A stretch of 64,000 nt of DNA from Candidatus Sumerlaeota bacterium (GTDB lineage Bacteria; Sumerlaeota; Sumerlaeia; JAFGJS01): positions 1 through 64,000 of the forward strand of contig JAFGJS010000075.1 of NCBI GenBank assembly GCA_016928995.1, written 5' to 3'. A program made the position numbers and the translations under genes. This document shows positions 7,664 through 44,515 of this stretch, piece after piece. Numbering within the stretch: position 1 is the stretch's first letter; each line of letters begins with the position of its first letter. The notes beneath the pieces were generated by a model that had not been told where the DNA came from, ran no database searches, and worked only from the letters and a program-made list of their open reading frames with translations.

Positions 7664-8356
7664 TCAGGCTTTCGGACCCAGCCCGGCGATGCATTGATCC
7701 TCACGGACTACTTTGCGCGGTCCGCCGTCAAGACCAGTGGACCAGTCCTGAGGTTCAGCGATTGCGTCGAGCTTGTCAAGAATGCCCAGCGCCTTGCAGC
7801 GGTCGTAGATCAACTGCCAGGCGCACTCCAACTCCGGATTGACTTCGCATTTGCCGCCGCGCGAACCAGCGCACGGGCCGTTGAAGAGTTTCTTGGCGCA
7901 ACGCGTGATCGGACAGATGCCGGCGTACTCGCCAAGGCGGCAATTTCCGCAGCCGGAGCATTTCTCCGTCCAGACGCCCTGCGATTCGAGGATGCCGATG
8001 AACTGGGTGTTGAGGCCGGGATAAACCGGCGTCTCCGGGAAGCGTTCCGCCAGCGCCTGCACGCCAGCGCCGCAGCCAAAGGAGACGATTGCGTCATACC
8101 CCGCGACGCGCTGGGCCAGAATGTCGATGAAGGCGTCCTCGCATTGACGTTCAATGGTGCACTCGTCCACCGTGACATCCGGACGGCCGCCGAGGCGGAG
8201 CGCCATGCGCAACGCAGAACCCAGGATGCCCACTTCGCGCTCGCCGCCGGAGAGACACACGGTGACGCATGTGCCGCATCCAACGAGCAGCACCTTGTTA
8301 TGCTTTGCGATCATATCCCGGATTTCAGGCACCTTTTTGCGATCGGCGACTATCAT
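7664..8356 (-). CDS. metV: MetV-like methylenetetrahydrofolate reductase C-terminal (zinc/Fe-S) subunit
   Basis: VGCGTCVTVCLSGGEREV and CSGCGNCRLGEYAGICPITRCAKKLFNGPC; operon with metF and hdr genes. Confidence 0.82.
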   Translation of the reverse strand: MIVADRKKVPEIRDMIAKHNKVLLVGCGTCVTVCLSGGEREVGILGSALRMALRLGGRPDVTVDECTIERQCEDAFIDILAQRVAGYDAIVSFGCGAGVQALAERFPETPVYPGLNTQFIGILESQGVWTEKCSGCGNCRLGEYAGICPITRCAKKLFNGPCAGSRGGKCEVNPELECAWQLIYDRCKALGILDKLDAIAEPQDWSTGLDGGPRKVVREDQCIAGLGPKA

Positions 8357-8383
8357 TATCGTTCTCCTTGGAATTCTTCAAAT

Positions 8384-8902
8384 TCATGAACAGCAGCCGC
8401 TCGGTGCGGCGGCGAGTTGGGCTTGCGCTTCTTGATCCATCTTCTTCATACCGGATTTCACTTGTTCCGGATCCGGCTTGATCGGACTCGGTCCCAAGCG
8501 TGTCACCCGTTCGGACATCCCGGTCACGATCTCCGCGAACCGTCCGCCTTCGGCCGAAGACAGGTTGTACATCTCCAGCCGTTCCGGTTCAAGGCCGGCT
8601 TCCCCCAGCAACACCTTGGCACGCTCGACTCTGCGGCGGGCGCGCAGGTTGCCTTCCTGAAAGTGGCATCCGCCTTCCAGGCATCCGGCGACGATCACGC
8701 CGTCCGCCCCGCGCTCGAAAGCGGCCATGATGTAATTAATCTCCACACGCCCCGTGCAGGGCAGCCGCAGCACGCGCACGTTGTCAGGATACTGCAGACG
8801 CATCGAACCGGCCAGGTCCGCCGCGGCATACGCGCAATAATGGCAGCAGAACGCCAGGATCAGCGGCTGCTCCGATTGCGGATTTGCATGCTTGGTGCTC
8901 AT
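8384..8902 (-). CDS. MvhD/FrhD-type hydrogenase iron-sulfur subunit (copy 2)
   Basis: ILAFCCHYCAYAAADLAG...VRVLRLPCTGRV...GADGVIVAGCLEGGCHFQEGN. Confidence 0.85.
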   Translation of the reverse strand: MSTKHANPQSEQPLILAFCCHYCAYAAADLAGSMRLQYPDNVRVLRLPCTGRVEINYIMAAFERGADGVIVAGCLEGGCHFQEGNLRARRRVERAKVLLGEAGLEPERLEMYNLSSAEGGRFAEIVTGMSERVTRLGPSPIKPDPEQVKSGMKKMDQEAQAQLAAAPSGCCS

Positions 8903-8908
8903 ATCGAT

Positions 8909-11900
8909 CTACCCCTTGTGCCAGCGCGGCTGCGCCACGCCGACCTCTTCGAGAAATTCCAATTTCAACTCCTGATGTTTCGTTCCCGGACGCAACAGAT
9001 TATCCACGGCGCCAAGAATCTGCGCGTCGATGTAATTGCGCAATTGAATCGCCTTGGCCGGGCAATCGGCCACGCAGCTGCCGCAGCCCATGCACACCGC
9101 GCTCTGAATTTCCGCCTTGTTGAATTCGTTCGGCCGCGGCGCCATGTACGCGCATACGTGAACGCACGTCATGCACGAAATGCACTTGTCCTGATCCACC
9201 CACGCCGTCTGCGCGCTCACGGGCATTTGCCTTTTCGAGAGGATCGAAGCCGCCCGCCCCGCCACGGCATTGGCCTGCGAAATTGTTTCGCTGATCGACT
9301 TGGGCGCGTGCGCCGTGCCGCAGAGGAACAAACCCTCGCTGGCGAAATCGACCGGACGCAGCTTGACGTGCGCCTCGAGGAAAAAGCCGTCGGCGTTAAG
9401 CGGAACACGCAGCAATTCCGACAACTCCTCCCGATCCGCGCGCGGAACCATCGGCGCGGCCAGCACGAGCAAATCCGGCTTAAGTTGCATCTCGCGCTTC
9501 AGCGACGGCTCATGCACGCTCAGCGAAAGCGCGCCGTTCACGCGGACTTCCGGCGGACGCTTCTCGTCGTAACGCATGAACAGCACGCCCTTCTCACGCG
9601 CCTCGCGATACTTCGCCTCACGGAAGCCGTAAGTGCGCATGTCGCGATACAGCACCACGATGCGCGCCTGAGGATAGCGCTCCTTCAACAGCAAAGCGTT
9701 CTTCACCGCCGTCGTGCAGCACACGCGGCTGCAATACGGCCGCTCCTCGTTGCGTTGCTCGACGCACTGGATCATCGCGATCGTCGCACTCGCAGGCAGT
9801 TCCAGGTCGTCCTTGGCGAGATGCTCGGAGAGCTCGAGTTGAGTCAGCACCTTGTCGCTCTGGCCGTAACCGTAGGATGTTGGCTTGTGCTCAGTGGCGC
9901 CCGTCGCCACAACCACGACGCCGTGCTCGATCTTGACCGGCTTCGGCGCGCCGTCCCCGGACTTATAGGAAACGATGCACGAATTGAAATCTCCGATATG
10001 GCCGTTGATCTCCGAAGCCTTCGAAGAGCGATAGACAAACACGCGCGGGTTGTCCTGCACCCGCGTGATAAGATCCTCGATACAAGCTCGCACGTCTCCG
10101 CCGTCAAGCGCCTTATGCACGCTGAGCGCGGTTCCGCCAAGTTCGTCGGATTTCTCGACAAGGTGCACGGTGAAGCCCTGATCGGCCAGCGCGAGCGCGG
10201 CGGTCATCCCCGCCACGCCGCCGCCAACGATAAGCGCGGCGTTCTTTACGGCAATCGTCGAGTCCTTGAGCGCGACAAGATTCGCCGCGCGGCCCGCCGT
10301 CATCCGCATCAGGTCGCAGGCCTTATTCGTGGCGCCTTCCGGATTGCCCGAATGCACCCACGAACATTGATCGCGGATGTTGGCCATCTCCAGCAGATAC
10401 GGATTCAGCCCTGCGTCGCGCAAGGTGTCGCGGAAAATCGGCTCATGCGTCCGCGGCGTGCAGGATGCGATCACCACGCGATTGAAACCATGCTCGATGA
10501 TCTTCGCTTTGATTTCATCCTGGCTGTCGTCGGAGCAGGTGTAGACCGCATGCCCTGCATAAACCACGTTGGGCAATTCCCGCGCAGCCTGCACCACGCG
10601 CTCAATATCCACCACCGACGCGATGTTGCTGCCGCAATGGCAAACGAATACGCCGATGCGCGGCGGTTCATCCGTCACGTCGCGGGCAGCCGGATAGTCT
10701 TTCGTGCGCACCATGCTGCCGCGCGCCGGGGCCAGCAGGGTCATCGCCTTGGCCGCCGCCGCGCTCGCCTGCATCACGGTGTCCGGAATGTCCTTCGGCT
10801 CCTGGAACGCGCCGCCGACGTAAACGCCCGGGCGCGATGTTTCAAGCGGCGACAACTCGGCGGTCGCGGCGAAGCCCCACTTGTTCAGCTCGACCGACAT
10901 GCGCTGGGCATGTTCCTGCAGACCCGCGCTGGGCTCCATACCAAGCGCCAGAACGATCATGTCGAACTCTTCATCAATCCGCTGCATTGTGTCCGGATCG
11001 ACGTAAGTCAGCTGCAAATTGCGCGTGCCGGGCATCTCATACGTGCGCGAAATGAACGAGCGTACATAGCGCACGCCCATCTTGTTCATCGCGCGATCGC
11101 AGTAACGGTCGAAGTCCTTCCCATACGCGCGCAAATCGAGGTAGAAAACCGTTATCTCGAGATCTGGCTCGTGTTCCTTAGCCAGGATCGCTTCCTTCGT
11201 CGTCGCCATGCAACAAATCGAAGAGCAATAATCATTGTCGCATCCCGCGTCGCGCGAACCGACGCATTGAATGAACGCGAGCCGCTTGGGCGTCTTGCCG
11301 TCCGAAGGCCGCACGATGTGTCCGCCCGTCGGACCGGAAGCGGAAAGGATGCGTTCGAACTGGACGTTCGTGACGACGTTCGGCGCGATGCCATAGCCGA
11401 ACTCGCCTCTTCGCGTGGCGTCGAACGCCTCGAAGCCGGGCGTGAGCAGCACAGCGCCGATCTTCAGTTCGAACGTCTTTTCCCGTTCTTCATGGTTAAT
11501 CGCGCCGGCCTTGCAAGCCTTAACGCAAAGCATGCACTCGGAACAACCCGCGCAATTCAGGCAGCGTCCAGCTTCGGCCCGCGCTTGTTCCGCGGTATAA
11601 GCTTTCTCAACCTCGGCGAAATCGCCGGTGCGTTGTGCGGCGTCCAATTCATCCGCGGCGATCCGGGGATTGCGGCCTCTGCGTTTCCGGATGTCCTTCA
11701 GACGCGCCAGGTCTTTCTCGGAAAGAGGATTCGGCCGGTCAGCCGGTTTCTTGACGCCCTCATCCAACGCCCGCCCAGCAAGATAATTGTCGATGGCTTT
11801 CGCAGCACGCTTGCCATGCGCGATGGCGTCGATCACGCTGGAAGGTCCGGCCACCACGTCGCCGCCGGCGAACACTCCCTGCTTCGATGTCGCCATCGTC

Positions 11901-13474
11901 AGCGCATCGGCTTCAATCGTGCCCCACTTTGACAAACCGAGTCCAAGCGCCTCGGCCATGCGCTTGTCAGCCGCCTGGCTCACCGCCGGAATCAGCGTGT
12001 CGGCCTCGATGCGGAACTCCGAGCCTTCAATCGGCACGGGGCGGCGGCGTCCGCTCGCGTCCGGCTCGCCCAGTTTCATGCGGATGCATTCGACTCCGGT
12101 CATGCGCCCGTTTTCCGCGATCACTTTCACCGGCGCGGCGAGATACTGAATGTCGATGCCTTCTTCCAGCGTCGCTTCGATCTCCACCGGATCGGCGGGC
12201 ATCTCTGCGCGCGTGCGGCGGTAGAGCATCGTCACTTCCTTCGCGCCTACGCGCAACGCCGTACGTGCGGCGTCCACGGCGGTGTTGCCGCCGCCGGCCA
12301 CCACGACGCGCTGGCCGATCCCGGTCGCCTCGCCCAGCGAATGCTTGCGCAGAAAATCCACGCCATGCACCACGCCCGTGCATTCCTCGCCGGGGATGTT
12401 GAGTTTCAGGCTCTCATGCGCGCCCGTCGAAATGAACATCGCGTCAAAATTGTTTTCGAGCTCCGCGACCGGAACATTGGCACCCACGCCCGCGTTCGTC
12501 TTGAACTCGACGCCCAGCGCGCGGATGGAATCAATGTCCCGCGCGAGAATATCCGCAGGCAAACGGTAATCCGGAATGCCGACCGCCAGCATGCCGCCCA
12601 GCACCGGAAGCGACTCGAACACGGTCGCCTGATGCCCGGCCAGCGCCAGCGAATGCGCCGCGGCGAGTCCGGCCGGACCTGATCCGACGATAGCCACGGA
12701 TTTGCCCGAAGGCTGAATGTCTTTGGGTGGATCGGCCGTTGGAAACTGGTCCATCGCGAAACGCTTCAAGCCGCGAATGTTAATCGGTTCATCGATCTCG
12801 CCGCGATTGCATTTCAGCTCGCACGGATGAAAACAGACGCGGCCGCAGATCGACGGCAGCGGATTGTCGCGGCGGATCACCTCGACGGCTTCCTCGAACC
12901 GGCCCGCGGCGATCAGCGCCACATACGCCTGCACGCTCGAATCAATCGGACAGCCCGAACTGCACGTGGCGCGGCCCGTCTTGCAGATTAAATTAGCGTT
13001 GGGCGCCGCCTGAGCGTAAAAGCGGTCGATCGCCTTGCGCGTTCCGATGCCCGCGTCGAACGGACTGCTCAATTCTACCGGACAGACACTGGTGCATTCG
13101 CCGCAGGCGGTGCACTTGGCCACGTCCACAAAGCGCGGACGCTGCCGCACCGTCGCCGTGAAGTTCCCCGCCTCGCCGTCGAGCTTCACCACGTCGGACA
13201 TGGTGAACACATCGATATTCATATCGCGCATGCACTCGACGAGCTTCGGCGAGATGATGCACGTCGCGCAGTCGCCGGTCGGGAACGTCTTGTCCAGCCG
13301 CGCCATGCCGCCGCCAACGGCGGGTTTTTCTTCGATGAGATAAACGCGAAAACCCGAAGCGGAAAGATCCAACGAAGCCTGAATCCCGGCCACGCCAGCG
13401 CCGCAAACGAGCACAGCGCCGCACATTTCCTTCGAATTGCCGTTCGATTTATTTTGATTGGATTCGAGATTCAT
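8909..13474 (-). CDS. hdrA: HdrA-like FAD/Fe-S protein with inserted GltD/NfnB-like module and a second HdrA-like half
   Basis: 1521 aa. VCGAGVAGIQASLDLS and VGGGVAGMTAALAL FAD sites, internal VAIVGSGPAGLAAAHSLALAGH plus VVVAGGGNTAVDAARTALRVGA (GltD-like), several CxxCxxCxxxC clusters. Confidence 0.88.
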   Translation of the reverse strand: MNLESNQNKSNGNSKEMCGAVLVCGAGVAGIQASLDLSASGFRVYLIEEKPAVGGGMARLDKTFPTGDCATCIISPKLVECMRDMNIDVFTMSDVVKLDGEAGNFTATVRQRPRFVDVAKCTACGECTSVCPVELSSPFDAGIGTRKAIDRFYAQAAPNANLICKTGRATCSSGCPIDSSVQAYVALIAAGRFEEAVEVIRRDNPLPSICGRVCFHPCELKCNRGEIDEPINIRGLKRFAMDQFPTADPPKDIQPSGKSVAIVGSGPAGLAAAHSLALAGHQATVFESLPVLGGMLAVGIPDYRLPADILARDIDSIRALGVEFKTNAGVGANVPVAELENNFDAMFISTGAHESLKLNIPGEECTGVVHGVDFLRKHSLGEATGIGQRVVVAGGGNTAVDAARTALRVGAKEVTMLYRRTRAEMPADPVEIEATLEEGIDIQYLAAPVKVIAENGRMTGVECIRMKLGEPDASGRRRPVPIEGSEFRIEADTLIPAVSQAADKRMAEALGLGLSKWGTIEADALTMATSKQGVFAGGDVVAGPSSVIDAIAHGKRAAKAIDNYLAGRALDEGVKKPADRPNPLSEKDLARLKDIRKRRGRNPRIAADELDAAQRTGDFAEVEKAYTAEQARAEAGRCLNCAGCSECMLCVKACKAGAINHEEREKTFELKIGAVLLTPGFEAFDATRRGEFGYGIAPNVVTNVQFERILSASGPTGGHIVRPSDGKTPKRLAFIQCVGSRDAGCDNDYCSSICCMATTKEAILAKEHEPDLEITVFYLDLRAYGKDFDRYCDRAMNKMGVRYVRSFISRTYEMPGTRNLQLTYVDPDTMQRIDEEFDMIVLALGMEPSAGLQEHAQRMSVELNKWGFAATAELSPLETSRPGVYVGGAFQEPKDIPDTVMQASAAAAKAMTLLAPARGSMVRTKDYPAARDVTDEPPRIGVFVCHCGSNIASVVDIERVVQAARELPNVVYAGHAVYTCSDDSQDEIKAKIIEHGFNRVVIASCTPRTHEPIFRDTLRDAGLNPYLLEMANIRDQCSWVHSGNPEGATNKACDLMRMTAGRAANLVALKDSTIAVKNAALIVGGGVAGMTAALALADQGFTVHLVEKSDELGGTALSVHKALDGGDVRACIEDLITRVQDNPRVFVYRSSKASEINGHIGDFNSCIVSYKSGDGAPKPVKIEHGVVVVATGATEHKPTSYGYGQSDKVLTQLELSEHLAKDDLELPASATIAMIQCVEQRNEERPYCSRVCCTTAVKNALLLKERYPQARIVVLYRDMRTYGFREAKYREAREKGVLFMRYDEKRPPEVRVNGALSLSVHEPSLKREMQLKPDLLVLAAPMVPRADREELSELLRVPLNADGFFLEAHVKLRPVDFASEGLFLCGTAHAPKSISETISQANAVAGRAASILSKRQMPVSAQTAWVDQDKCISCMTCVHVCAYMAPRPNEFNKAEIQSAVCMGCGSCVADCPAKAIQLRNYIDAQILGAVDNLLRPGTKHQELKLEFLEEVGVAQPRWHKG

Positions 13475-14370
13475 CGAGCCGCTCCTGCTTGCGCCGAACG
13501 ACGTTCGCCACTGGAAATCTTCTTGAGCACTGCGTTGGCGTTGATCGTCAGGGCGTTCAGTCCGAGATCATCCGGCTTAAGCCCCAGAGCCAGCCCCAGC
13601 AGCTGCGTGATGTAGAGAGCCGGAGTCGGCGGAAGCTTGCCATGCGCATTCGCATCGGCCTGACGCATATCGAGATTCATCTGGCAAAGCGGGCAGGCCA
13701 CGGCGATGCAATCGGCGCCCGCCTCGACTGCCATGGCCAACAGGCGATGCGACAGCCGGCCCACAATGTTCGCATTCGACAACGACAGGCTCGCGCCGCA
13801 ACATTCGGTTTTATACGGCCAATCGACCGGCTCGCCGCCGGCGGCATCGATCAGCTCATCCATGCACGTGGGATGCTCCGGATTGTCGAAAGCGACGACC
13901 TCGGGCGGCCGCGAGAGCAGGCACCCGTAATATGACGCTACGCGCAAACCGCTCAGCGGCTTGGAAATGCGGCTTCGCACTCGCTCCACGGTGTATTCAT
14001 TCACGAGCACATCGAGAACATGCCGGACCGGCGTCTCGCCCGCGTATGCGGCGCCGGTGATCGTTTTAACTCGCTCGCGTTCCTGCTCGTCGGTTTTGAC
14101 TTTGTGGTTCGCCGTGCGCAGCCGGGCATAGCATGAAGCGCAAGCCGCCATGACCTCCAGCCCCATCTCGCGCGCCTTCTGCAGATTCATCGCGGGCAGC
14201 GCCGTCGCCAGCGAAGCATTGGACGAATGCGCGGGCGTTGAGCCGCAGCAGGTCCAATCCGGAATATCCGTGAGTTCAATATCAAGCGCCTGGCACATCG
14301 CGCGAGTGGACTTGTCGAAATCCCACGCTGTCGATTCAAGGCTGCATCCGGGAAAGAACGCGTACTTCAT
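13471..14370 (-). CDS. hdrB: CoB-CoM heterodisulfide reductase subunit B-like
   Basis: Two CCG domains (DWTCCGSTPAH; TECCGASLSLSN...CPLCQMNLD). Confidence 0.88.
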   Translation of the reverse strand: MKYAFFPGCSLESTAWDFDKSTRAMCQALDIELTDIPDWTCCGSTPAHSSNASLATALPAMNLQKAREMGLEVMAACASCYARLRTANHKVKTDEQERERVKTITGAAYAGETPVRHVLDVLVNEYTVERVRSRISKPLSGLRVASYYGCLLSRPPEVVAFDNPEHPTCMDELIDAAGGEPVDWPYKTECCGASLSLSNANIVGRLSHRLLAMAVEAGADCIAVACPLCQMNLDMRQADANAHGKLPPTPALYITQLLGLALGLKPDDLGLNALTINANAVLKKISSGERRSAQAGAAR

Positions 14371-14930
14371 CGTTTCTTCTCCTCTTCATCGGCCCGTTTG
14401 AACGCCTCTCGCACTTCCTTGGCCGCGGCGGATGAATGATGCGGCAGGAAGGATAGTTTCCGCTTAGCCAGCATCGCAGGAACCTTGTCGACATCGGAAA
14501 AGAAATCGCGCGTACGCAGTTTATAGGCGGTCATCATGCCCAGTTCAAACACGCGGCCATGCCGCCGCACGCTCTTCAGGAAGGAGTCGTTGAATGTCCT
14601 GACCCGCTCATCGGGCGCCGCGGCCTTGCGTTCCACTGCAAGCATGCGCAGCGTGTCCATCACGCCCGCGATATCGATCTCCATCGGGCAACGCGTCGTG
14701 CACGCCTCGCACGAAGCGCAAAGCCAGATCGCTTTCGACGCCAGCGTCTCCTCGTCCAGCCCCAGCTGCACCATGCGCATCACCTGGCTGGAAAGCAGGT
14801 CCATCTCCGGCGCGATCGGGCACCCGGTCGAACATTTATGGCATTGCAGACACGCCCCGACCGGCGCGCCGCTGCGTCGCTCGACTTCTTCGAGAAACGC
14901 CGTATTCGTCCATTCGACTGCTTTTGTCAT
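14367..14930 (-). CDS. hdrC: Heterodisulfide reductase subunit C-like 4Fe-4S protein
   Basis: CLQCHKCSTGCP and CASCEACTTRCP, RxxFNDSFLKSVRRHGRVFE. Confidence 0.86.
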   Translation of the reverse strand: MTKAVEWTNTAFLEEVERRSGAPVGACLQCHKCSTGCPIAPEMDLLSSQVMRMVQLGLDEETLASKAIWLCASCEACTTRCPMEIDIAGVMDTLRMLAVERKAAAPDERVRTFNDSFLKSVRRHGRVFELGMMTAYKLRTRDFFSDVDKVPAMLAKRKLSFLPHHSSAAAKEVREAFKRADEEEKKR

Positions 14931-14966
14931 CGGTCTTGTCCTTCAAACATCGAAACTATCCGTTTC

Positions 14967-17651
14967 TTATTCCCCTAACGCCTCGAGCTCGGCCTCAAGC
15001 TCGGCGTCCTTGCGCGGCATCACCTTGCGATAAACCTCCGCGGGCTTGCGCAAAACTCCGTCCACGGTGAGCAAATCGCGCTCGATCTCAATCCCGAAGA
15101 GCCGCTCATTCTCACGCAGATAAGGCAGAATCAGTTTCCAATCCCTGGCCGCAAGCGGACGATACATCCCGCCATTGAGCTGATCGGTCACCAAAGTCTG
15201 ATGCGGATCGCGCACGTAAATCGCGCCGCCCGAAGCCAGCGACAACAGGTTTGAACCGGGATACGGCAACTCCAGCGGAACGACCTTGCCCTCCTCGTCG
15301 AAACGCACGCCGTTGACGATGGCGAAGCCGCCGCCGTTGTGCGGATCGCCCGCCATGAACGACTCGGCCAGAAAATCGAGCGCCGTGCCGTTGATGATCA
15401 CTCGCGGCTTGCCCACCGCGTTGATCATCGGGCGGCCGGCCGCGTTGCCCATCACGTAAAACACGCCGCCCTTGGCGCCATAGAGGAACGTCTGCCCCAC
15501 ATCGCCGTACACGACCAGTTTTCCGCGCTTCGCAATCTGGCACAGCTGATCCTGGGCGTTGCCGTGCATATGGACTTCAAGCCCGTCCATGCCCGAACCC
15601 AGGTAATCGCCCGCATTATCGTAGCAATCCACCAGCAAGCCGTCGGTCTGCGCGCCGAAGCCCGCCGCATGAAAACGCGTGCCGCGGCTGTTATAATGCA
15701 CAAAATGCCGCCAGCCGAGTTCATACGCCTTGACCGCAAGCATCGCGTCGCAATCCAAACCTTCCGGACTGAAACCGCGCGCGTCGATGAGGAGCGTGGC
15801 TTCGTCCTCCTGCGGTCCGCGCAGCGTTTCGCGCGAATCCCAATTGATCCGGCGATGCGTGATCGCTTTACTCGAACTCGCCGCTTTTGCATTGCTGAAC
15901 AGCGGCTGGCGATCAAAAATCGTCTGCAAGCCCTGCCGCAAGATCGTCAGGATGGAACTGTGCTTCTTGCCGCCGGTCGGATAGCAGCGATCCAGGCATA
16001 AAGTCAGCGTGTCGATTCCCATGCCGGGCGCACGTTCAGCGGTCTGCTTCACCGTCTCATCCACGAACAAACGAAGCCGGTCAAAGTCCATGGCGGCGGC
16101 CGCATCGCGAAAATAGCCGAAAAGCCCCTCGGCATTCTCAACGCTGACGAAGCGGGCGATCTCCTCCGCGTCCGGCGAAACATTAGAATTCACCGCAATC
16201 GAAAGGTTGCAACGCTTCTGCTCCGAACTCGTGGACACCGGCACGCCGAACTTGTCGGTGATATTCAGTTTATAATGGCCATTTGACGCCGCAGAGGCGA
16301 AGCCATTGCCATTCGGCGCGATGTTCATCAAGAACGCCCCGCCGTCGCTGTAGCTGCCGCCGCGCGCATTCCAATACCGGTCCGCAACGGGTGAAATGCG
16401 CGGCTCCTCGGCGGCCAAACTGGCCAGCGTCGCGTCGATCGCCTGTTTCTCCGAACAGATCAGCCCGATGGACACCTCGCCTTCCTGCACGGCGAAAACC
16501 TGCGGACGAAGCATCGCGGTGTCCGTGATGCCCAGCAGCTGAAAGCCCTGCGGACCCAGGTTGCGGGCGATGATGAAGAACCACGGCCCGTCCGGCGATC
16601 CGTGCATGTGCGACGCCTGAATCTGGCGATAGATGCGTTGCCTTTCAGTAGGCAGACGGTCGAAGTCCAGTTCGGTGGTCGGCGCCAGCGCCTCGATGAT
16701 GTACTCCAGCGGGTACTTGTAAACCCGGTTCATCAAGTCGAACAGCATCACGGAAACCTCGGTGTCCGTGAGGAACTGCGGAAACAGATTGCGCTGCGCC
16801 AGGTATTCGCACACCGAGTGATAGTTCGCAAAGTCGCCGTTATGCACCAGCGCCTCGTTCATCCCGATGAACGGATGGCACCCGCCCGGATGCCATACGC
16901 GTCCGCGAGTCGGGTAGCGCTGATGCGCGATCCAGACATGCGCCCGGGTGTCAGCCATGCAATAATACTGCACGACGGCCTCGGCGTAGCCCACGACCTT
17001 GAGGATTACGAGATTCTTCGCGTGCGAAAGCACAAAGGCCTGCTTTTCGCCCATCGAAGCGTAATATTTCTGATTCAGCCGCGTGGAATTCTGAAAAACG
17101 AACTCGTCCTCCAGTTCCGTCTGCGAAAGATGACCAAGCCCCTTCTCCTGCGCGAAGCGTTCGAGCGCATCGGATTTCACTCGCACGAAATAGCGCGCCA
17201 CGTCCGGCGGCTTCACTTCCAACAGCGGCACGTCGCGATAATCATCGACCGTCTCAAGTAAGCCCGCCTGGTCGATCTCGAAATACGGCTCGATGCAGGT
17301 CCGCTCCACTTCCTCGCGGACATTGGGATCGAGCAATGCGATCTGCAGAATGTAGTCCTCGTCCAGAACCTTGCGCGAAACGCCCATGTCTTCCGGCACA
17401 AGACCGCACGCCGCGATGCCGCCGCCCTTGCCGTTGCCGCGATTGCGCATCTGGATCGACGGCTCGTAAATATGCCGGCCGCCCACCGGAACCGTGCAGC
17501 AAAAGCCAGTCACGCCGCAGCCGCCTTCCGCCTCGGGCGATTTCGCGAACCACTCATCGTCCGACGGACGATATGCCGCGCGGGCCTGGCGATAAAGCTC
17601 GATCCGGTCTAAATTGGAACGGGAAGGATTGATGTATTTTTCAAGGTTCAT
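14967..17651 (-). CDS. Glutamate synthase-like protein: class II glutamine amidotransferase + GXGXG domain
   Basis: Start MNLEKYINPS at 17651 overlaps the upstream stop (ATGA). GGCGVTGF nucleophile region, HQRYPTRG...HPFIGMNEALVHNGDFANY, GXGXG repeats (GDYLGSGMDGLEVHMHGNAQDQ..., GAKGGVFYVMGNAAG). Confidence 0.87.
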   Translation of the reverse strand: MNLEKYINPSRSNLDRIELYRQARAAYRPSDDEWFAKSPEAEGGCGVTGFCCTVPVGGRHIYEPSIQMRNRGNGKGGGIAACGLVPEDMGVSRKVLDEDYILQIALLDPNVREEVERTCIEPYFEIDQAGLLETVDDYRDVPLLEVKPPDVARYFVRVKSDALERFAQEKGLGHLSQTELEDEFVFQNSTRLNQKYYASMGEKQAFVLSHAKNLVILKVVGYAEAVVQYYCMADTRAHVWIAHQRYPTRGRVWHPGGCHPFIGMNEALVHNGDFANYHSVCEYLAQRNLFPQFLTDTEVSVMLFDLMNRVYKYPLEYIIEALAPTTELDFDRLPTERQRIYRQIQASHMHGSPDGPWFFIIARNLGPQGFQLLGITDTAMLRPQVFAVQEGEVSIGLICSEKQAIDATLASLAAEEPRISPVADRYWNARGGSYSDGGAFLMNIAPNGNGFASAASNGHYKLNITDKFGVPVSTSSEQKRCNLSIAVNSNVSPDAEEIARFVSVENAEGLFGYFRDAAAAMDFDRLRLFVDETVKQTAERAPGMGIDTLTLCLDRCYPTGGKKHSSILTILRQGLQTIFDRQPLFSNAKAASSSKAITHRRINWDSRETLRGPQEDEATLLIDARGFSPEGLDCDAMLAVKAYELGWRHFVHYNSRGTRFHAAGFGAQTDGLLVDCYDNAGDYLGSGMDGLEVHMHGNAQDQLCQIAKRGKLVVYGDVGQTFLYGAKGGVFYVMGNAAGRPMINAVGKPRVIINGTALDFLAESFMAGDPHNGGGFAIVNGVRFDEEGKVVPLELPYPGSNLLSLASGGAIYVRDPHQTLVTDQLNGGMYRPLAARDWKLILPYLRENERLFGIEIERDLLTVDGVLRKPAEVYRKVMPRKDAELEAELEALGE

Positions 17652-19198
17652 TTTTCGTAATCCAAATGCGTCAGCAAGTCCGTCCGGCCGCGCAAAGCAG
17701 CGACCGAATCGAGCCCCAGGCGATACAGAATCCCCACGAGGATCTCGCGCCACGCGCTGTATAGATTGACCAGCCGCTGCGTGCTCCACTCAATGGTGAG
17801 CATCTCCAGCAATTCCGAATCCGTCGTCGCGATTCCGCGCGCGCATCCGCGTCCGCTCTCGCATCGGCCGCACCGGATGCAATCCAGCGCCACCAGCTCC
17901 GCCGTGCCGATCACGACGCCGTCCGCGCCCAGCGCGATGGCCTTGGCCACGTCCCACGGCGTGCGGATGCCGCCGCTGGCGATCACGGTGATTTCGTCGC
18001 GCACTCCTTCGTCCATCAGGAAGTTATGTACGCCGTTGATCGCGTACTCGATGGGCATGGCGATGTTCTTCTTGGCCACGTCCGGCGCCGCGCCCGTGCC
18101 GCCGTAGCTGCCGTCCATATGTACGATGTGCGCTCCGGCGCAATACACGCCGACCGCCACCATCTCCACGTCATTCGGCGTCGAGACCTTCGCCGAAAGC
18201 AGCGCCCGCGGATTGACGTGCGCGATCCAATCCAGATGTTTTTTGTGGTCCTCAATCGAATACACGCTATGGAACGGAAACGGCGAAAAGAGCGACGTGC
18301 CGACGACCGCCTCGCGCATCGCCGCCACGTCCGGCGTGTTCTTGTCGCCGAGTAGATGCCCGCCCAATCCCGGCTTGGCGCCCTGCGCATACTTGAACTC
18401 AACGATACGCGCCCGGCTGATCGTCTCCTCGCGCACACCGAACAGCCCCGTCGCCACCTGCGTGATCATATGATCGGCGTACGGAACGAACCTGTCGGGA
18501 TAGCCGCCCTCGCCGGTGCAGCTGAACGTGTTCCACGCCTTGGCCACGCGCGCCTTCGAAATCAGCGCGCGCAAATTCGTCGAACCGAACGACATGCCGC
18601 CGCCATACCACGGCACATCAATTTTAATCTTCTCACGCGGATCATTCTTCCGGCGATTCAGCAGCAGTTCCGTGGAAATATCCTCCGGACGCAGATCGCT
18701 CGGAGGCGAATCGGGAAAACAAAATCGCAGTTTATCAAAGCCCCCGCCTGATGCGCCGGTCTCGCTTTCCAGAAACGCCGACGGCTGCATGCCCGTTTCA
18801 GCCATGTGCCACGTGCTGGCGAGCAGATCCGGCGGCCAGCGGCAATCGCCCAACGTTTCATAAGCGGGATTCGCGCGAACCGAAAGCGCCCCCTGCGGAC
18901 ATGCCTCGACGCAATTGGGGCCGCTTTCCGTGCAATCGGGTCCGATGCAGCGATAGTCGAGCGGACGCAACGGCATGCGATAGCCTTGCGGCCGCAGATG
19001 AACATCATGCTCGCAAACCTCGACGCACTTGCCGCAGGCGATACACTTTGAGTCGCGATGCACGCTGAATTTGCCGACAGGGTTGCGGTAACGCGGCGCC
19101 GCCCGGCGTACCTCGCGCGAAACAGCGGCATAGTCGAACGCGGATTGGCCCTCGATTTCCTGCTCTTGCGTTATGTCTTCTCTGGCGATCGCGCACAT
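17648..19198 (-). CDS. Glutamate synthase FMN-domain protein with N-terminal ferredoxin (canonical copy)
   Basis: CIACGKCVEVCEHDV, CTGEGGYP, AQGAKPGLGGHL, DGSYGGTGAAP, CIRCGRCESGRGCARGI. Confidence 0.88.
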   Translation of the reverse strand: MCAIAREDITQEQEIEGQSAFDYAAVSREVRRAAPRYRNPVGKFSVHRDSKCIACGKCVEVCEHDVHLRPQGYRMPLRPLDYRCIGPDCTESGPNCVEACPQGALSVRANPAYETLGDCRWPPDLLASTWHMAETGMQPSAFLESETGASGGGFDKLRFCFPDSPPSDLRPEDISTELLLNRRKNDPREKIKIDVPWYGGGMSFGSTNLRALISKARVAKAWNTFSCTGEGGYPDRFVPYADHMITQVATGLFGVREETISRARIVEFKYAQGAKPGLGGHLLGDKNTPDVAAMREAVVGTSLFSPFPFHSVYSIEDHKKHLDWIAHVNPRALLSAKVSTPNDVEMVAVGVYCAGAHIVHMDGSYGGTGAAPDVAKKNIAMPIEYAINGVHNFLMDEGVRDEITVIASGGIRTPWDVAKAIALGADGVVIGTAELVALDCIRCGRCESGRGCARGIATTDSELLEMLTIEWSTQRLVNLYSAWREILVGILYRLGLDSVAALRGRTDLLTHLDYEK

Positions 19199-19204
19199 GG
19201 TCGA

Positions 19205-20668
19205 TTATGCTCCATATTCCTCTTTGCGTTTGCCGAAGATCCTGCCGAACGTGGCCTCCTCCAGATCCTCGAAAAACATGCTGCGTCCCGTTTCACCGCG
19301 CAACCGCCGCGCCTCGCGGATGCCCATGGCGCCGAGCAGCTCAAGCAGCTGATTGCGCCAAGCGCCGATCAGGTTCACAATGCGCTGGGACGCGCCTTCC
19401 AATTCCGTGTTTTCCAGCCGGACCGGGCATGGCTCGCCGCGTCCGCACTCGCCGCAAAGCCGGCATTCAAGCGCCACGACAAGCGGCAAGTCCACGGCGA
19501 TCAGATCGGCCCCGCAGATCACCGCCTTGGCCATATGCTCCGGCAGCGCGATGCCGCCCGAGGCGATCAACGTGATCTCGTCGCGTGTGCCGGCCTTGAC
19601 CAGCGCGCCGTGCACATCGCGCAGCACATCGCGCATGTGACGCGGCTTCGCAGCGCCTGCTTCGCGTCCATGCGAATTGAAAACAAGATGAATCACTTCC
19701 GCGCCAAGACGAGACAACTCGAGCGTCCGCTCCGTCGCGTTGGGCGCGGCGTTCAACCGGATCGCTACGATCCGCTCAGGTTTTCCATGCTTCAACGCGT
19801 CGATGATGGAACCAATCTCCGGTTGATCCGCGACCATCACCATCGCCGCATCGGGACAGATCGCTTCAATGTTCGTCCGCGGATCGCTGATGAACGGCGT
19901 CAGATAGTTGCGCGCGATTTCATGCTCCGCGGCTTCATCCTTGCCGACCGCGATGCCGCCGGGAACGCTGGGATAATGCTTCGGCAGCGGCGGCAGATCC
20001 TCCGCGCGAACCACCGCGAAAATTCCCATCTTCGCCGCAGCCTGCGCGACAGCGGCAAACACCGGACCGCGTTGATAACGTTCAGGGAGAATATCGAAAA
20101 TCAACGGCATCGGATTCTCGATCAATGGCGAGGTGAAAATTTCAACTTCGCCTTGATTGAACGCGACATGACCCGGCTTGCGGCCGATATCGACGCTCGT
20201 GTTGATGTACTCGCGCCCATGAATCCCGTCACGCGTCGGGCGGACGATCTCCGACATATCGGTCCACATGGAATTGAAGCCCGGACCGCTGAACGGGCCG
20301 CCATATCCCGCGCCGGAAACCGGAATGCCGCCGGTTTCCGCCTGATACCAGGTGGAGAGAATGATGTCGGGCGTATAGTACGAATCGCCCAGCCGTTTGT
20401 ATTCAGGATTGACCACCCGTGTGAGAATTCCCTTGGTGCAGTTCTGCACGCAGTTCAGACAGCCCTTGCACTGGTAGATGTAATCCAGATAGCCCGTCTC
20501 GTCATGCAGACTGTCCGCCTCATCACGGAAAAGCCCATAAACACAACTGCGCTTGACGCAATTGTGGCAGCTCGAACAATCCTCGCGCCAATCGACAATG
20601 CCCAGCTTGCCAACGGGACGATAGCGCGGCGGAACGCGCTTGATCTCAATGTGATATTTTTCAGGCAC
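19205..20668 (-). CDS. Divergent glutamate synthase FMN-domain-like protein with N-terminal ferredoxin
   Basis: CSSCHNCVKRSCVYGLF...CKGCLNCVQNCTKGIL, ASGGIALPEHMAKAVICGADLIAVDLPLVVALECRLCGECGRGEPC. Confidence 0.8.
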   Translation of the reverse strand: MPEKYHIEIKRVPPRYRPVGKLGIVDWREDCSSCHNCVKRSCVYGLFRDEADSLHDETGYLDYIYQCKGCLNCVQNCTKGILTRVVNPEYKRLGDSYYTPDIILSTWYQAETGGIPVSGAGYGGPFSGPGFNSMWTDMSEIVRPTRDGIHGREYINTSVDIGRKPGHVAFNQGEVEIFTSPLIENPMPLIFDILPERYQRGPVFAAVAQAAAKMGIFAVVRAEDLPPLPKHYPSVPGGIAVGKDEAAEHEIARNYLTPFISDPRTNIEAICPDAAMVMVADQPEIGSIIDALKHGKPERIVAIRLNAAPNATERTLELSRLGAEVIHLVFNSHGREAGAAKPRHMRDVLRDVHGALVKAGTRDEITLIASGGIALPEHMAKAVICGADLIAVDLPLVVALECRLCGECGRGEPCPVRLENTELEGASQRIVNLIGAWRNQLLELLGAMGIREARRLRGETGRSMFFEDLEEATFGRIFGKRKEEYGA

Positions 20669-20670
20669 GG

Positions 20671-21588
20671 CTATGCGATCCCCAGTTTGGTCTTTGCAAT
20701 GACTTCCAGCGCGGCGTCGTTCTCGCCCTCGCAGCGAATTTCAAAGCCGCGCAGGCCGTCGAGTTGCTTCAAACGCTCCACGGTTTCCACGGCGATTTCG
20801 ATACCAGCAGCCCGCTGGGCCGCTGCATCATTTCGCGAAGCGATCCGCTCTGGAACGCCGGAGGGAACGCAGGGCGAGGGCAGGCTCTCGGCGCATTGCC
20901 GCGCTTCGTCAGCGCTCGTTAGAATTTGTACTCCAGCGATGAAAGCCGTCTTCTTGTGCAGTTCCAGACGCTGGACTTCGCTCCACCAAGTCTCAAATCG
21001 ATCCAGATCAAAAACAGGCTGTGTGATCAGAAACTGCGCTCCAGCTTGCACCTTTTTGGCCAAACGCAGGATTTGCATTTCGAGCGGATCCGCGAACGGC
21101 GCGGCCACGCCGCCGATGCAATACGGACCGGCGCCGCTCAATCCCGCCTCGCCGACCAGCGCGCCGGCCGACTTTAAATTCGACAAAGCCTGGATCAGTT
21201 GCACCGAATCGATGTCGAACACGTTTTTGGCGGACCGGCTCGGACTCAGGGTTTGATGCGTGCCGGTCGTGCAGAGAACATTGCGAATTCCCAGCGCCGC
21301 CGCACCGAGACAATCCGAGACCAAAGCCGTGCGATTGCGGTCGCGCGTCGTGATGTGCAGAATCGGCTCAATGCCCTCTTGCGCGACGATCGACGCCGCC
21401 GCCAACGCCGACATCGCCACGCCATGGCGATTATCGCCGACGCCCAGGGCGTGCGCCTTGTCCGCGAATCCCTTCGCCGCAGCGCGGACAAATTCGCTGT
21501 CGCCGCCTTTGGGGGGAGACATTTCAACAATCAAAAGCGATTCGCCGTTCTCAAGGCGTTTGTGCAGAGTTGTCTTTTCTTTCGTCAT
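20671..21588 (-). CDS. metF: Methylenetetrahydrofolate reductase
   Basis: LLIVEMSPPKGGD, ILHITTRDRNR, FLITQPVFDLDRFETW. Confidence 0.9.
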   Translation of the reverse strand: MTKEKTTLHKRLENGESLLIVEMSPPKGGDSEFVRAAAKGFADKAHALGVGDNRHGVAMSALAAASIVAQEGIEPILHITTRDRNRTALVSDCLGAAALGIRNVLCTTGTHQTLSPSRSAKNVFDIDSVQLIQALSNLKSAGALVGEAGLSGAGPYCIGGVAAPFADPLEMQILRLAKKVQAGAQFLITQPVFDLDRFETWWSEVQRLELHKKTAFIAGVQILTSADEARQCAESLPSPCVPSGVPERIASRNDAAAQRAAGIEIAVETVERLKQLDGLRGFEIRCEGENDAALEVIAKTKLGIA

Positions 21589-21624
21589 GATCCCCTCGTA
21601 TGCGTATTCCGTTGACGCTTGCGA

Positions 21625-22080
21625 TCAGGATGCCTGGGTAACGGCCGGCTTCCCAATCGATGTAGTAAGTTGTTCCACAGTTTCACGCACGATTCGCTCG
21701 AGATCGTCGGATGAAACATCCGCGGGACAATGCTTTAATAGGATCCGGTTCGCTTCCATCCCGATCTCATTGAGCAACCGCTGGACCGTGGCCACGCGAA
21801 TCTCCGCGCGATAGTTTCCCTGCGCTAAATGACATTCACCCTGGGGACAGGCAAAGACGCAGACCGCCTTCACTCCGCCCTCGAAGGCATGCATCAAATA
21901 TTGCACATCCAGCTTGCCGCTGCAGGGCGTCATTTGCGCCTGCACGCGCAATTCATTCTGCCGCCACTGCCGGGGCAAACGAGCGCTGGGCGACACGCAA
22001 TTATTACAGACGTATACGATAACATCCGCGCAATCAGAAACCGGCATCTTTACGTTCCAAACCTTCCTTATGAATGACAA
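21625..22080 (-). CDS. MvhD/FrhD-type hydrogenase iron-sulfur subunit (copy 1)
   Basis: VYVCNNCVSPSARLPRQ...MTPCSGKLDVQYLMHAFEGGVKAVCVFACPQGECHLAQGN. Start may be 22047. Confidence 0.83.
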   Translation of the reverse strand: MSFIRKVWNVKMPVSDCADVIVYVCNNCVSPSARLPRQWRQNELRVQAQMTPCSGKLDVQYLMHAFEGGVKAVCVFACPQGECHLAQGNYRAEIRVATVQRLLNEIGMEANRILLKHCPADVSSDDLERIVRETVEQLTTSIGKPAVTQAS

Positions 22081-36934: not shown

Positions 36935-38434
36935 TTATCGCTCCGGCGCCTGGCGCATGTCGCTATAGCCGGGCGTGTTGAACTGGGTGTTTTGATTGGG
37001 GAGGCTGCTGTAGCCCATTAAGTATTCATCCATGGAGTAGGCGGCCTCGCGGCCTTCGAGAATGGCCCAGACAACCAGACTCTGACCGCGCCGCATGTCG
37101 CCCGCGGCAAACACGCCGTCCACGCTTGTCTTGTATTTCTCATCGGCCTGGACATTGCCGCGGCCATCCAGTTTGCAGTTGAGCTTGCCGTTCCAGTATT
37201 TCTCCGGACCCAGAAAACCCAGGGCCAGCAACGCCATGTCGCACTCCTGAACGAACTCGCTGTCCGGAACTTCGATCATCTCCGGCCGGCCGCCGCCTTC
37301 CGGCTGTTTGAACTCGATCCGCACGGCTCGCAGCGCCTTCAGGGCGCCGTTTTCATCGCCGATGAATTCCTTGGTCAGGATGCCCCAGTCGCGCTCACCG
37401 CCTTCCTCCTGCGAGGAGGATGTGCGTAGAATATTCGGCCAATAGGGCCATTGCCAATGCTTGTCCAGCGCCTCGGGCGGCTGACTCAGCAGTTCATACT
37501 GATGCACGCTCTCCGCTTTCTGCCGCAGGCTGGTCCCCAGGCAGTCGGAACCGGTGTCGCCGCCGCCGAGTACCACGACTTTCTTACCTGTCGCAAGAAT
37601 CGCCTGCTTCTCGGGAACTTCATCGCCCGCCAAACGGTGATTCTGCTGCGAGAGAAATTGCATGGCGAAATATACGCCCTTGAGCTCCCGCCCCGGTATC
37701 GGCAGATCGCGCGGTTGAGTGGCGCCGCCGGACAGCAGCACAGCGTCGTTTTCCGCGCGAAGCTGCTCCAGCGTCACATCGCGCCCCACGTCCATGCCGG
37801 TCTTGAAAACCACGCCCTCCGCCTCCATCTGCTGCATGCGGCGGTCGATGATCTCCTTGTTCAGTTTGAAATCGGGAATTCCGTAGCGCAGCAATCCACC
37901 GATGCGGCTGTCGCGTTCATACACTGTCACGGCATGGCCCGCACGAGCTAGTTGTTGCGCGGCGGCCAAGCCTGCCGGTCCGCTGCCGATAATGGCGGCT
38001 TTTTTGCCCGACTGCCGCGCGGGAATCCAGGGTTTCACCAATTCTTGTTCAAACGATTGGTCGGCGATGTGCTGTTCGATGGACTTGATCGTCACCGGCG
38101 GCTCGTTGATCCCCAGCACGCACGACGCCTCGCATGGCGCAGGGCACACGCGCCCCGTCACCTCGGGAAAATTATTCGTTGCATGGAGCAAGTCAATCGC
38201 TTCTTCCAGCCGGTCGCGATAGACTGCGTCATTCCAATCCGGAATCGAGTTTCCCAACGGGCAACCCGTATGGCAAAACGGCGTGCCGCAATCCATGCAG
38301 CGCGCCCCCTGCCTTTGCAGTTCCTTGATCGAAAGCTGCTGGATGAATTCGCCCCAATGGCTCAAGCGCTCATCCGACGGCCGGTACGGCGCGGTCTTGC
38401 GCTCATGCAACATGAAACCTTTCGGATTGCCCAT
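36935..38434 (-). CDS. gltD: Glutamate synthase small subunit
   Basis: CMDCGTPFCHTGCPLGN, AAIIGSGPAGLAAAQQLARAGH, VVVLGGGDTGSDCLGTSLRQ. Confidence 0.93.
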   Translation of the reverse strand: MGNPKGFMLHERKTAPYRPSDERLSHWGEFIQQLSIKELQRQGARCMDCGTPFCHTGCPLGNSIPDWNDAVYRDRLEEAIDLLHATNNFPEVTGRVCPAPCEASCVLGINEPPVTIKSIEQHIADQSFEQELVKPWIPARQSGKKAAIIGSGPAGLAAAQQLARAGHAVTVYERDSRIGGLLRYGIPDFKLNKEIIDRRMQQMEAEGVVFKTGMDVGRDVTLEQLRAENDAVLLSGGATQPRDLPIPGRELKGVYFAMQFLSQQNHRLAGDEVPEKQAILATGKKVVVLGGGDTGSDCLGTSLRQKAESVHQYELLSQPPEALDKHWQWPYWPNILRTSSSQEEGGERDWGILTKEFIGDENGALKALRAVRIEFKQPEGGGRPEMIEVPDSEFVQECDMALLALGFLGPEKYWNGKLNCKLDGRGNVQADEKYKTSVDGVFAAGDMRRGQSLVVWAILEGREAAYSMDEYLMGYSSLPNQNTQFNTPGYSDMRQAPER

Positions 38435-38491: not shown

Positions 38492-43300
<4,809 letters not shown>

Positions 43301-43492
43301 TGTATCCACCGCCTTGCCTAAATTAGTCCTGCATTCTTGCCAGTCATTACAAATCCGGGAAGATTTCCCGCGACATCCATTCCATCGAAAATCAAAAACC
43401 ACTTATTCCTTGCATTACAAATGCTTAATAATCTATACTCATATTATCGTCTTTCTAATGCTTTAGACAAACGAAAAGTATATATATTGTAT

Positions 43493-43624: not shown

Positions 43625-44515
43625 ATGAATATTCAGGACTTCAAGATTTTCTTCGACATCGTCACACATAACAGCTTCAGCCAGGCGGCAGCCATGAATC
43701 ACGTTTCTCAATCCGCTGTCAGTCAGACTGTGCGCCGTCTGGAAAGCGAACTCAACTGCCGCCTGATTGATCGCTCCGTGCGCCCGTTCCAATTAACTCG
43801 CGCCGGCAAGCATTTTTTTGAGGGTTCAAAAAAAATCCTCAACCTGTTCGAATCGCTCTGCAGCGAAGTGCAGGCCAGCGAAACAGAAGAGGAAATCGCG
43901 GGCGTCGTGCGCGTCGCCGCGATCTACTCCGTCGGCCTGGTGGAGCTCAACCAGCGCATCCAGCTTTTCGTGCGGCTGCATCCAAAAACAAACGTGCGCC
44001 TCGCGTATCAACGTCCGAATTTGATTTATGATTCGCTGGATCGCGATGAGGTTGATCTCGGAGTGGTTTCCTATCCGCTGCCGCGCAAGGATTTGAAAAT
44101 TCTGCATTGGCGCAATGAACGCATGGCGCTCGTTTGTCATCCGGATCATCCTCTCTCGCGTCAAAACAGCATCACTGCTGACTTGCTGCAAGGGGTGAAG
44201 CTCATCGCCTTTGATCGCGACCTGCCGATTCGCAAGCAGATCGACAAATGGCTGCTCAAAAACGGGATTGAGGCGGAGATCGTGATGGAATTCGACAACG
44301 TCGAGAACATCAAGCAGGCCGTTGAAGTCAAGGCCGGGGCGAGCATCCTCCCGCTTCCCACGGTCAAGCGCGACGTGCATTACCGCTACCTGTCCGTCGT
44401 CCCGCTGGAAAGCGCGGAACTCATCCGCCCTGTCGGCATCCTGCATAAAAAACACAAGCCGCTCAGCACGGCATCGCAAGCCTTTATTAAATTCCTGCTC
44501 GATTCCACGGATTAA
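43625..44515 (+). CDS. LysR family transcriptional regulator
   Basis: MNIQDFKIFFDIVTHNSFSQAAAMNHVSQSAVSQTVRRLESELNCRLIDR; divergent from gltB. Confidence 0.92.
   Translation: MNIQDFKIFFDIVTHNSFSQAAAMNHVSQSAVSQTVRRLESELNCRLIDRSVRPFQLTRAGKHFFEGSKKILNLFESLCSEVQASETEEEIAGVVRVAAIYSVGLVELNQRIQLFVRLHPKTNVRLAYQRPNLIYDSLDRDEVDLGVVSYPLPRKDLKILHWRNERMALVCHPDHPLSRQNSITADLLQGVKLIAFDRDLPIRKQIDKWLLKNGIEAEIVMEFDNVENIKQAVEVKAGASILPLPTVKRDVHYRYLSVVPLESAELIRPVGILHKKHKPLSTASQAFIKFLLDSTD

Follow-up and report, generated by a model that had tools for sequence, protein, structure and literature searches.

Gene content of the operon

Ten minus-strand open reading frames, separated by gaps of 2–36 bp or overlapping by 4 bp, lie at positions 7664–22080 of the window, the whole 64,000-nucleotide stretch of Candidatus Sumerlaeota DNA analysed here. 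All ten frames exist as consecutive genes with short gaps or 4-bp overlaps, as an earlier note on this DNA had described, and Pfam/NCBIfam searches returned the identities that it had assigned (FlpD/MvhD, MTHFR, Glu_synthase twice, GATase_6 with GXGXG, HdrC, HdrB, HdrA, FlpD/MvhD and DUF5981). The order of transcription is MvhD1, MetF, FMN1, FMN2, GATase-GXGXG, HdrC, HdrB, HdrA, MvhD2 and MetV (Table 1), with a 716-bp gap upstream of the operon. MvhD1 probably starts at the ATG at 22047. The GATase-GXGXG gene starts at 17651 and not at 17789, which produces an ATGA overlap with FMN2 and leaves about 44 residues ahead of the catalytic cysteine.

Table 1. Genes of the operon in order of transcription, with window positions and supporting model matches.
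Product	Positions	Strand	Evidence
MvhD1, [2Fe-2S] MvhD/FlpD-type electron-transfer subunit	21625..22080	-	PF02662 E=1e-24
MetF-like flavoprotein	20671..21588	-	PF02219 E=7e-25
FMN1, degenerate glutamate-synthase barrel	19205..20668	-	PF01645, C-terminal half only
FMN2, N-terminal Fe-S region and glutamate-synthase FMN domain	17648..19198	-	PF01645 E=5e-86
GATase-GXGXG, class-II glutaminase fused to GXGXG beta-helix	14967..17651	-	GATase_6 and GXGXG; PF01493 E=7e-10
HdrC, two 4Fe-4S clusters	14367..14930	-	TIGR03290 E=2e-19, under its curated cut-off
HdrB, both CCG cysteine sets	13471..14370	-	PF02754 x2
HdrA with inserted GltD/NfnB NAD(P)H domain and second Rossmann half; HdrL / type III-like	8909..13474	-	NF040770, NF009410/TIGR01316
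MvhD2	8384..8902	-	PF02662 E=2e-49
MetV (DUF5981)	7664..8356	-	PF12225 E=3e-35

Glutamate synthase-type subunits

The best fold match of the GATase-GXGXG protein was glutamate synthase (GOGAT), and the class-II glutaminase residues of its GATase domain (C45, R245, N271-G272 and D296), representing the catalytic Cys, Arg, Asn-Gly and Asp of the GOGAT glutaminase, were invariant across the set. The GXGXG beta-helix of GOGAT was recognized by both its Pfam model and the fold match, and the two domains were fused in all 59 loci in which both were readable.

FMN2 retained K269, Q272, K275, R295, E316 and C440/C446/C452, of which K269, K275, R295 and E316 align with K931, K937, R957 and E978 of A. 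brasilense GltS (2vdc_A) and the three cysteines with its Fe-S cysteines C1102/C1108/C1113, such that both the 2-oxoglutarate Lys/Arg residues and the Fe-S cysteines of a GOGAT FMN barrel are present. A fourth cysteine, C443, is additional to the three aligned ones. The aligned residues were near-invariant across the set, and we take them to serve in FMN and 2-oxoglutarate binding, coupling of the two sites and ligation of a [3Fe-4S] cluster.

Both of the proteins that had been put forward as GOGAT FMN-domain proteins do carry a Glu_synthase domain, but the active site survives in FMN2 alone, as the PF01645 match of FMN1 covers just the C-terminal half of the model. A role of FMN1 as a second active GOGAT was rejected, because it lacks both the GAKPG region and the N-terminal part of the FMN barrel. 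It was also considered as the canonical GltS central domain; the fold search returned a general FMN-type barrel. Two AlphaFold models were made, both of monomers, and the AlphaFold2 model of FMN1 was an FMN-type TIM barrel (pLDDT 73). Twelve FMN1 cysteines were invariant in 81/81 sequences, and the protein is a probable Fe-S electron-relay subunit. A further Glu_synthase-domain protein of ~566 aa shares a contig with the operon in two genomes (G063:C75:48654-49646 and G078:C104:6053-7036), and in G063 it lies ~2 kb past metV.

HdrABC and its NAD(P)H modules

HdrA is 1521 aa long, a giant size explained by a GltD/NfnB-type NAD(P)H domain inserted at residues ~150–625. The protein matched HdrA as well as Nfn/GltD structures in the PDB, and it contains the GltD domain within HdrA that marks type III HdrA. 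In the 47 loci where the beginning of HdrA could be read, the GltD insert was present in 30 and NuoEFG in 16; none had both and one had neither (L046, 1036 aa). In the NuoEFG form (L045:15794-21757 and 15 other loci) HdrA is interrupted, at the place of the GltD insertion, by a NuoE domain, a NuoF gene and a NuoG-like N-terminus. The exchange of two unrelated NAD(P)H-oxidising modules at one position of HdrA argues strongly that NAD(P)H enters there. The motif GGGNTA...YRRTR in the GltD domain of the window suggests NADPH, while GGGNVA with an acidic residue in the GltD domain of a second clade suggests NADH.

HdrB matched HdrB of solved Hdr complexes and its CCG cysteines were kept in 44/44 sequences, while the eight cysteines of HdrC were invariant (47/47). 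The full HdrB cysteine set suggests another substrate or a cluster role.

MetF and MetV

MetF, MetV, HdrABC and MvhD are all co-encoded in the operon. The catalytic glutamate of the operon MetF (E22) was kept in 73/75 sequences and H111 in 74/75, but the folate-site aspartate, the other residue expected of an MTHFR active site, is Thr110 in the window protein. At this position 13/75 sequences had Asp, those shown being from Desulfobacterales, and the remaining 62/75 had Tyr, Thr, Phe, Ala, Ser or Asn. A separate canonical metF is present on contig C104 of the window's genome. Retention of the catalytic glutamate and of MetV indicates that a one-carbon substrate may be real, and MetFV may be a second port, either active or vestigial.

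Conservation and distribution of the operon

A second Sumerlaeota genome contained the same ten genes in identical order at 57–90% identity. A search of GTDB genome contigs with FMN1 as the query returned 328 relatives and located the arrangement in more than a dozen phyla, so the refuting condition named in the earlier note, conservation in this genome only, does not hold. The best 80 of these 328 loci were examined, and by name they belong to Planctomycetota, Omnitrophota, Armatimonadota, Thermodesulfobacteriota, Kiritimatiellota, Hydrogenedentota, Fibrobacterota, Myxococcota, Verrucomicrobiota, Chloroflexota, Latescibacterota, Bacteroidota, Ignavibacteriae and others. Gene order is thus largely kept among anaerobes, mostly uncultured, that span over a dozen phyla, and this cross-phylum synteny rules out an assembly artefact or chance adjacency.

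For loci whose contig extends far enough, an MvhD homologue was found upstream of MetF/FMN1 in 67/69, MetF in 65/69, FMN2 in 69/69, GATase in 58/58, HdrC and HdrB each in 42/51 and HdrA in 44/47. MvhD2 has an equal position in L023 and L046. Judging from coordinates, at least 17 other carriers have a MetV (DUF5981) gene on the contig that bears the FMN genes, ~10–12 kb downstream of them, a spacing that matches its place in the window. Pairwise divergence was correlated between subunits (r 0.62–0.94). In a tree for which the program warned of long branches, FMN1 and FMN2 formed sister clades with largely mirrored topologies, set apart from split and canonical GOGATs.

Prevalence was sparse and scattered; in the phylum to which one Planctomycetota carrier belongs, 6 of 294 genomes possessed the operon. 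Some match was present in 11/40 Sumerlaeota genomes, and full FMN1 only in the window's genome (G000) and G037. A Desulfobacterales form (MvhD-MetV-MetF-FMN1-FMN2-GATase-GXGXG) occurs without adjacent Hdr genes and some other loci have no HdrB/HdrC beside HdrA, which indicates that Hdr is not always adjacent. One deltaproteobacterial contig (L048:214-21380) carries two tandem copies, first the Desulfobacterales-like form (MvhD-MetV-MetF-FMN1-FMN2-GatGXG) and then the Hdr form.

Genomic context and carrier genomes

Flanking genes conserved across loci encoded AmtB (12 loci), PII (12 loci), NrpR (10 loci), GdhA and GlnA, with each representative confirmed by Pfam, and 27/80 loci had at least one of these five beside the operon. 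In 432 kb of flanks ~40 nitrogen-assimilation genes were seen in comparison to ~1 expected if 4 Mb are assumed to hold 10 genes of this kind. None of the five was found within the window itself.

The window does possess a canonical gltB (38492-43402) and a gltD-like gene (36935-38434), 15 kb from the operon, and this gltB has a divergent LysR gene (43625-44515). LysR relatives stand beside the operon in other phyla (L029, L049 and L052; 42–45% to the L049 protein), and their presence beside both canonical gltB and the operon suggests a shared GOGAT regulator. A sigma-54 activator family with a GAF domain occurred in seven flanks (L064, L065, L070, L075, L079, L080 and L045; Pfam-checked in L080), and sigma-54-like sites were found upstream of MvhD in 10/66 loci against 2.2% of mononucleotide shuffles, a result that is suggestive only. 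A class-I glutamine amidotransferase gene was near the operon in L059, L061, L063, L064, L068, L085 and L042, in several cases just upstream of MvhD.

Canonical GltB was a strong match in 27/50 carriers. It was not found as a strong match in the other 23, of which 13 had the operon FMN2 as their only strong Glu_synthase match, a count to which MAG incompleteness applies. Acetyl-CoA synthase (ACS; PF03598) was not found in 30/50 carriers, including the window's genome (92% complete), gaps in the MAGs being possible; the Desulfobacterales genomes examined do have ACS. The acetyl-CoA synthase expected of a Wood-Ljungdahl host was thus not found in most carriers, which weakens an interpretation of the operon as a Wood-Ljungdahl device.

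Proposed function of the operon

We propose, with a probability of about 0.6, that the ten gene products form a single NAD(P)H-driven, multi-subunit glutamate synthase that serves ammonium assimilation and is assembled on an Hdr electron-transfer chassis, a device that microbes employ elsewhere in methane and acetate chemistry. As every part of a glutamate synthase is there, catalytic residues included, and the neighbours are those of ammonium assimilation, a GOGAT fed through HdrA is the most economical reading of the gene and residue content. The cross-phylum synteny, the correlated divergence of the subunits with mirrored FMN1/FMN2 trees, the exclusive GltD or NuoEFG module and the carriers without a strong GltB or without a match to ACS also speak for it. 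Against it count the canonical gltB and gltD-like gene of the window, where none of the five nitrogen-assimilation genes was found, the kept MetF glutamate and MetV, the complete HdrB cysteine set and the loci in which Hdr genes are not adjacent. From these data we infer complex formation, glutamate synthase activity, an electron route, bifurcation, the substrates and a role of MetF as follows. Glutamine hydrolysis would take place on the GATase part of the GATase-GXGXG fusion, and the ammonia and 2-oxoglutarate would meet on the FMN of FMN2, where the imine would be reduced to glutamate. NAD(P)H would enter through the GltD-type domain within HdrA (NuoEF-type in other lineages), and electrons would pass from the HdrA flavins over MvhD, FMN1 and the N-terminal Fe-S regions to FMN2. 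MetFV would provide another flavin/Fe-S port, either inherited from the MetFV-HdrABC-MvhD complex or shared with it.

HdrA is the bifurcating subunit of characterised Hdr complexes, and glutamate formation with NADPH is strongly exergonic, its free energy normally being wasted in GOGAT; taken together, these make bifurcation to a low-potential acceptor plausible. HdrA would then probably bifurcate, with the wasteful downhill step to glutamate driving a low-potential acceptor such as ferredoxin. The fuller proposal is of a flavin-bifurcating glutamate synthase in which HdrA splits NAD(P)H electrons and glutamate formation pays for ferredoxin reduction (or feeds MetFV), so that ammonium assimilation would conserve energy in anaerobes of many phyla. 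This we advance tentatively, and consider it somewhat less probable than its opposite.

Alternatively, one-carbon and nitrogen metabolism could be coupled directly, with MetF oxidising methyl-THF (or reducing methylene-THF) and trading electrons with glutamate formation at FMN2, and NAD(P)H as a third partner; this is the strong version of the supercomplex suggested in the earlier note. MetF and MetV are kept almost throughout, the MetF catalytic glutamate is conserved and MetF divergence tracks that of the other subunits (r 0.62–0.91), all of which would fit such coupling. Tyr, Thr or Phe replaces the folate aspartate in most copies, however, the window's genome has another metF, and most carriers lack ACS, which leaves methyl-THF without an evident catabolic source or sink, so that we regard this alternative as unlikely.

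The earlier note had suggested that one flavin/Fe-S supercomplex may couple methylene-THF reduction, NAD(P)H and glutamine/2-oxoglutarate-type chemistry. One conserved module does bring these together with MetFV and Hdr, but its framing as an acetogen-type methylene-THF reductase with additions is probably not correct, given the ACS and folate aspartate counts, the separate metF and the nitrogen-assimilation neighbours. Another alternative, in which a Moorella-type reductase (MetFV-HdrABC-MvhD) uses the GOGAT-like proteins only as an electron relay or scaffold that turns over neither glutamine nor 2-oxoglutarate, draws on the full MetFV-HdrABC-MvhD set, on the catalytic glutamate of MetF and on the examined Desulfobacterales copies, which keep the folate aspartate in genomes with ACS. 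A scaffold would not hold glutaminase and FMN/2-oxoglutarate residues invariant, nor does it agree with nitrogen genes around the operon, carriers in which ACS was not found (30/50) or loss of the folate aspartate (62/75), and we judge this alternative unlikely, slightly more so than direct coupling. An amine exchange like that of N-methylglutamate synthase in methylamine use, with MetF oxidising the product, is very improbable: that enzyme is also split into GATase, FMN and GXGXG parts and MetF is next door, but no N-methylglutamate synthase model matched, the flanks hold AmtB, PII, NrpR, GlnA and GdhA with no conserved methylamine genes found, and the gene context lends this identity no support.

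GOGAT is central to nitrogen assimilation, and the operon appears to be the sole glutamate synthase candidate in some carrier phyla. If the HdrA-fed glutamate synthase reading is true and bifurcation occurs, an anabolic reaction would join the short list of bifurcating ones. Such an enzyme would also offer a lead on a possible acceptor of MetFV-Hdr-type complexes.

Comparison with known systems

No description of MetF/Hdr combined with glutamate synthase subunits was found in searches of the open-licence PMC literature. The closest relative on the Hdr side is the MetFV-HdrABC-MvhD complex of Moorella thermoacetica (Moth_1191-1196), described in PMC6085437, PMC9012536 and PMC5736913, which shares six subunit families, a single operon and an HdrA with doubled flavin halves. 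The window operon adds to this set three glutamate-synthase-type subunits, absent from the Moorella complex as the earlier note had pointed out, and a second MvhD. It also differs in the GltD or NuoEFG insert of HdrA, in a MetF usually without the folate aspartate, in a nitrogen gene context and in carriers that mostly lack ACS. The HdrA with a GltD insert corresponds to HdrL of D. autotrophicum (PMC2702500) and to type III HdrA / HdrA9-11 of ANME-1 (PMC9012536, PMC12054007), where the portions of these papers on HdrL and type III HdrA likewise place a GltD/NfnB domain in HdrA with MvhD alongside and do not report MetFV or glutamate synthase subunits with them.

On the glutamate synthase side, the NADPH-dependent GltBD of A. 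brasilense (PDB 2vdc/6s6s) shares the GATase, FMN domain, GXGXG helix and GltD-type NAD(P)H domain with key residues. In the operon, by comparison, the GATase is fused directly to GXGXG, the FMN domain is a separate Fe-S protein with the degenerate twin FMN1, the GltD part resides inside HdrA and the Glu_syn_central model has no match in the window operon. The split three-gene GOGAT (GATase, FMN and GXGXG; L024, L025 and L108) shares a separate FMN subunit, the N-terminal Fe-S domain and the four-Cys site, whereas its set has no MetF, MetV, MvhD or HdrA, its GATase and GXGXG are unfused, and its FMN and GATase proteins are ~36% and ~30% identical to those of the operon. In Sumerlaeota G011 and G012 (L024:192-5176 and L025:10373-14602) the gene immediately before this split GOGAT encodes an HdrB-HdrC-like fusion, so GOGAT-like clusters linked to Hdr may extend beyond this operon. 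Set against these systems, a GOGAT wired to HdrA would constitute a new class of glutamate synthase if its activity is confirmed.
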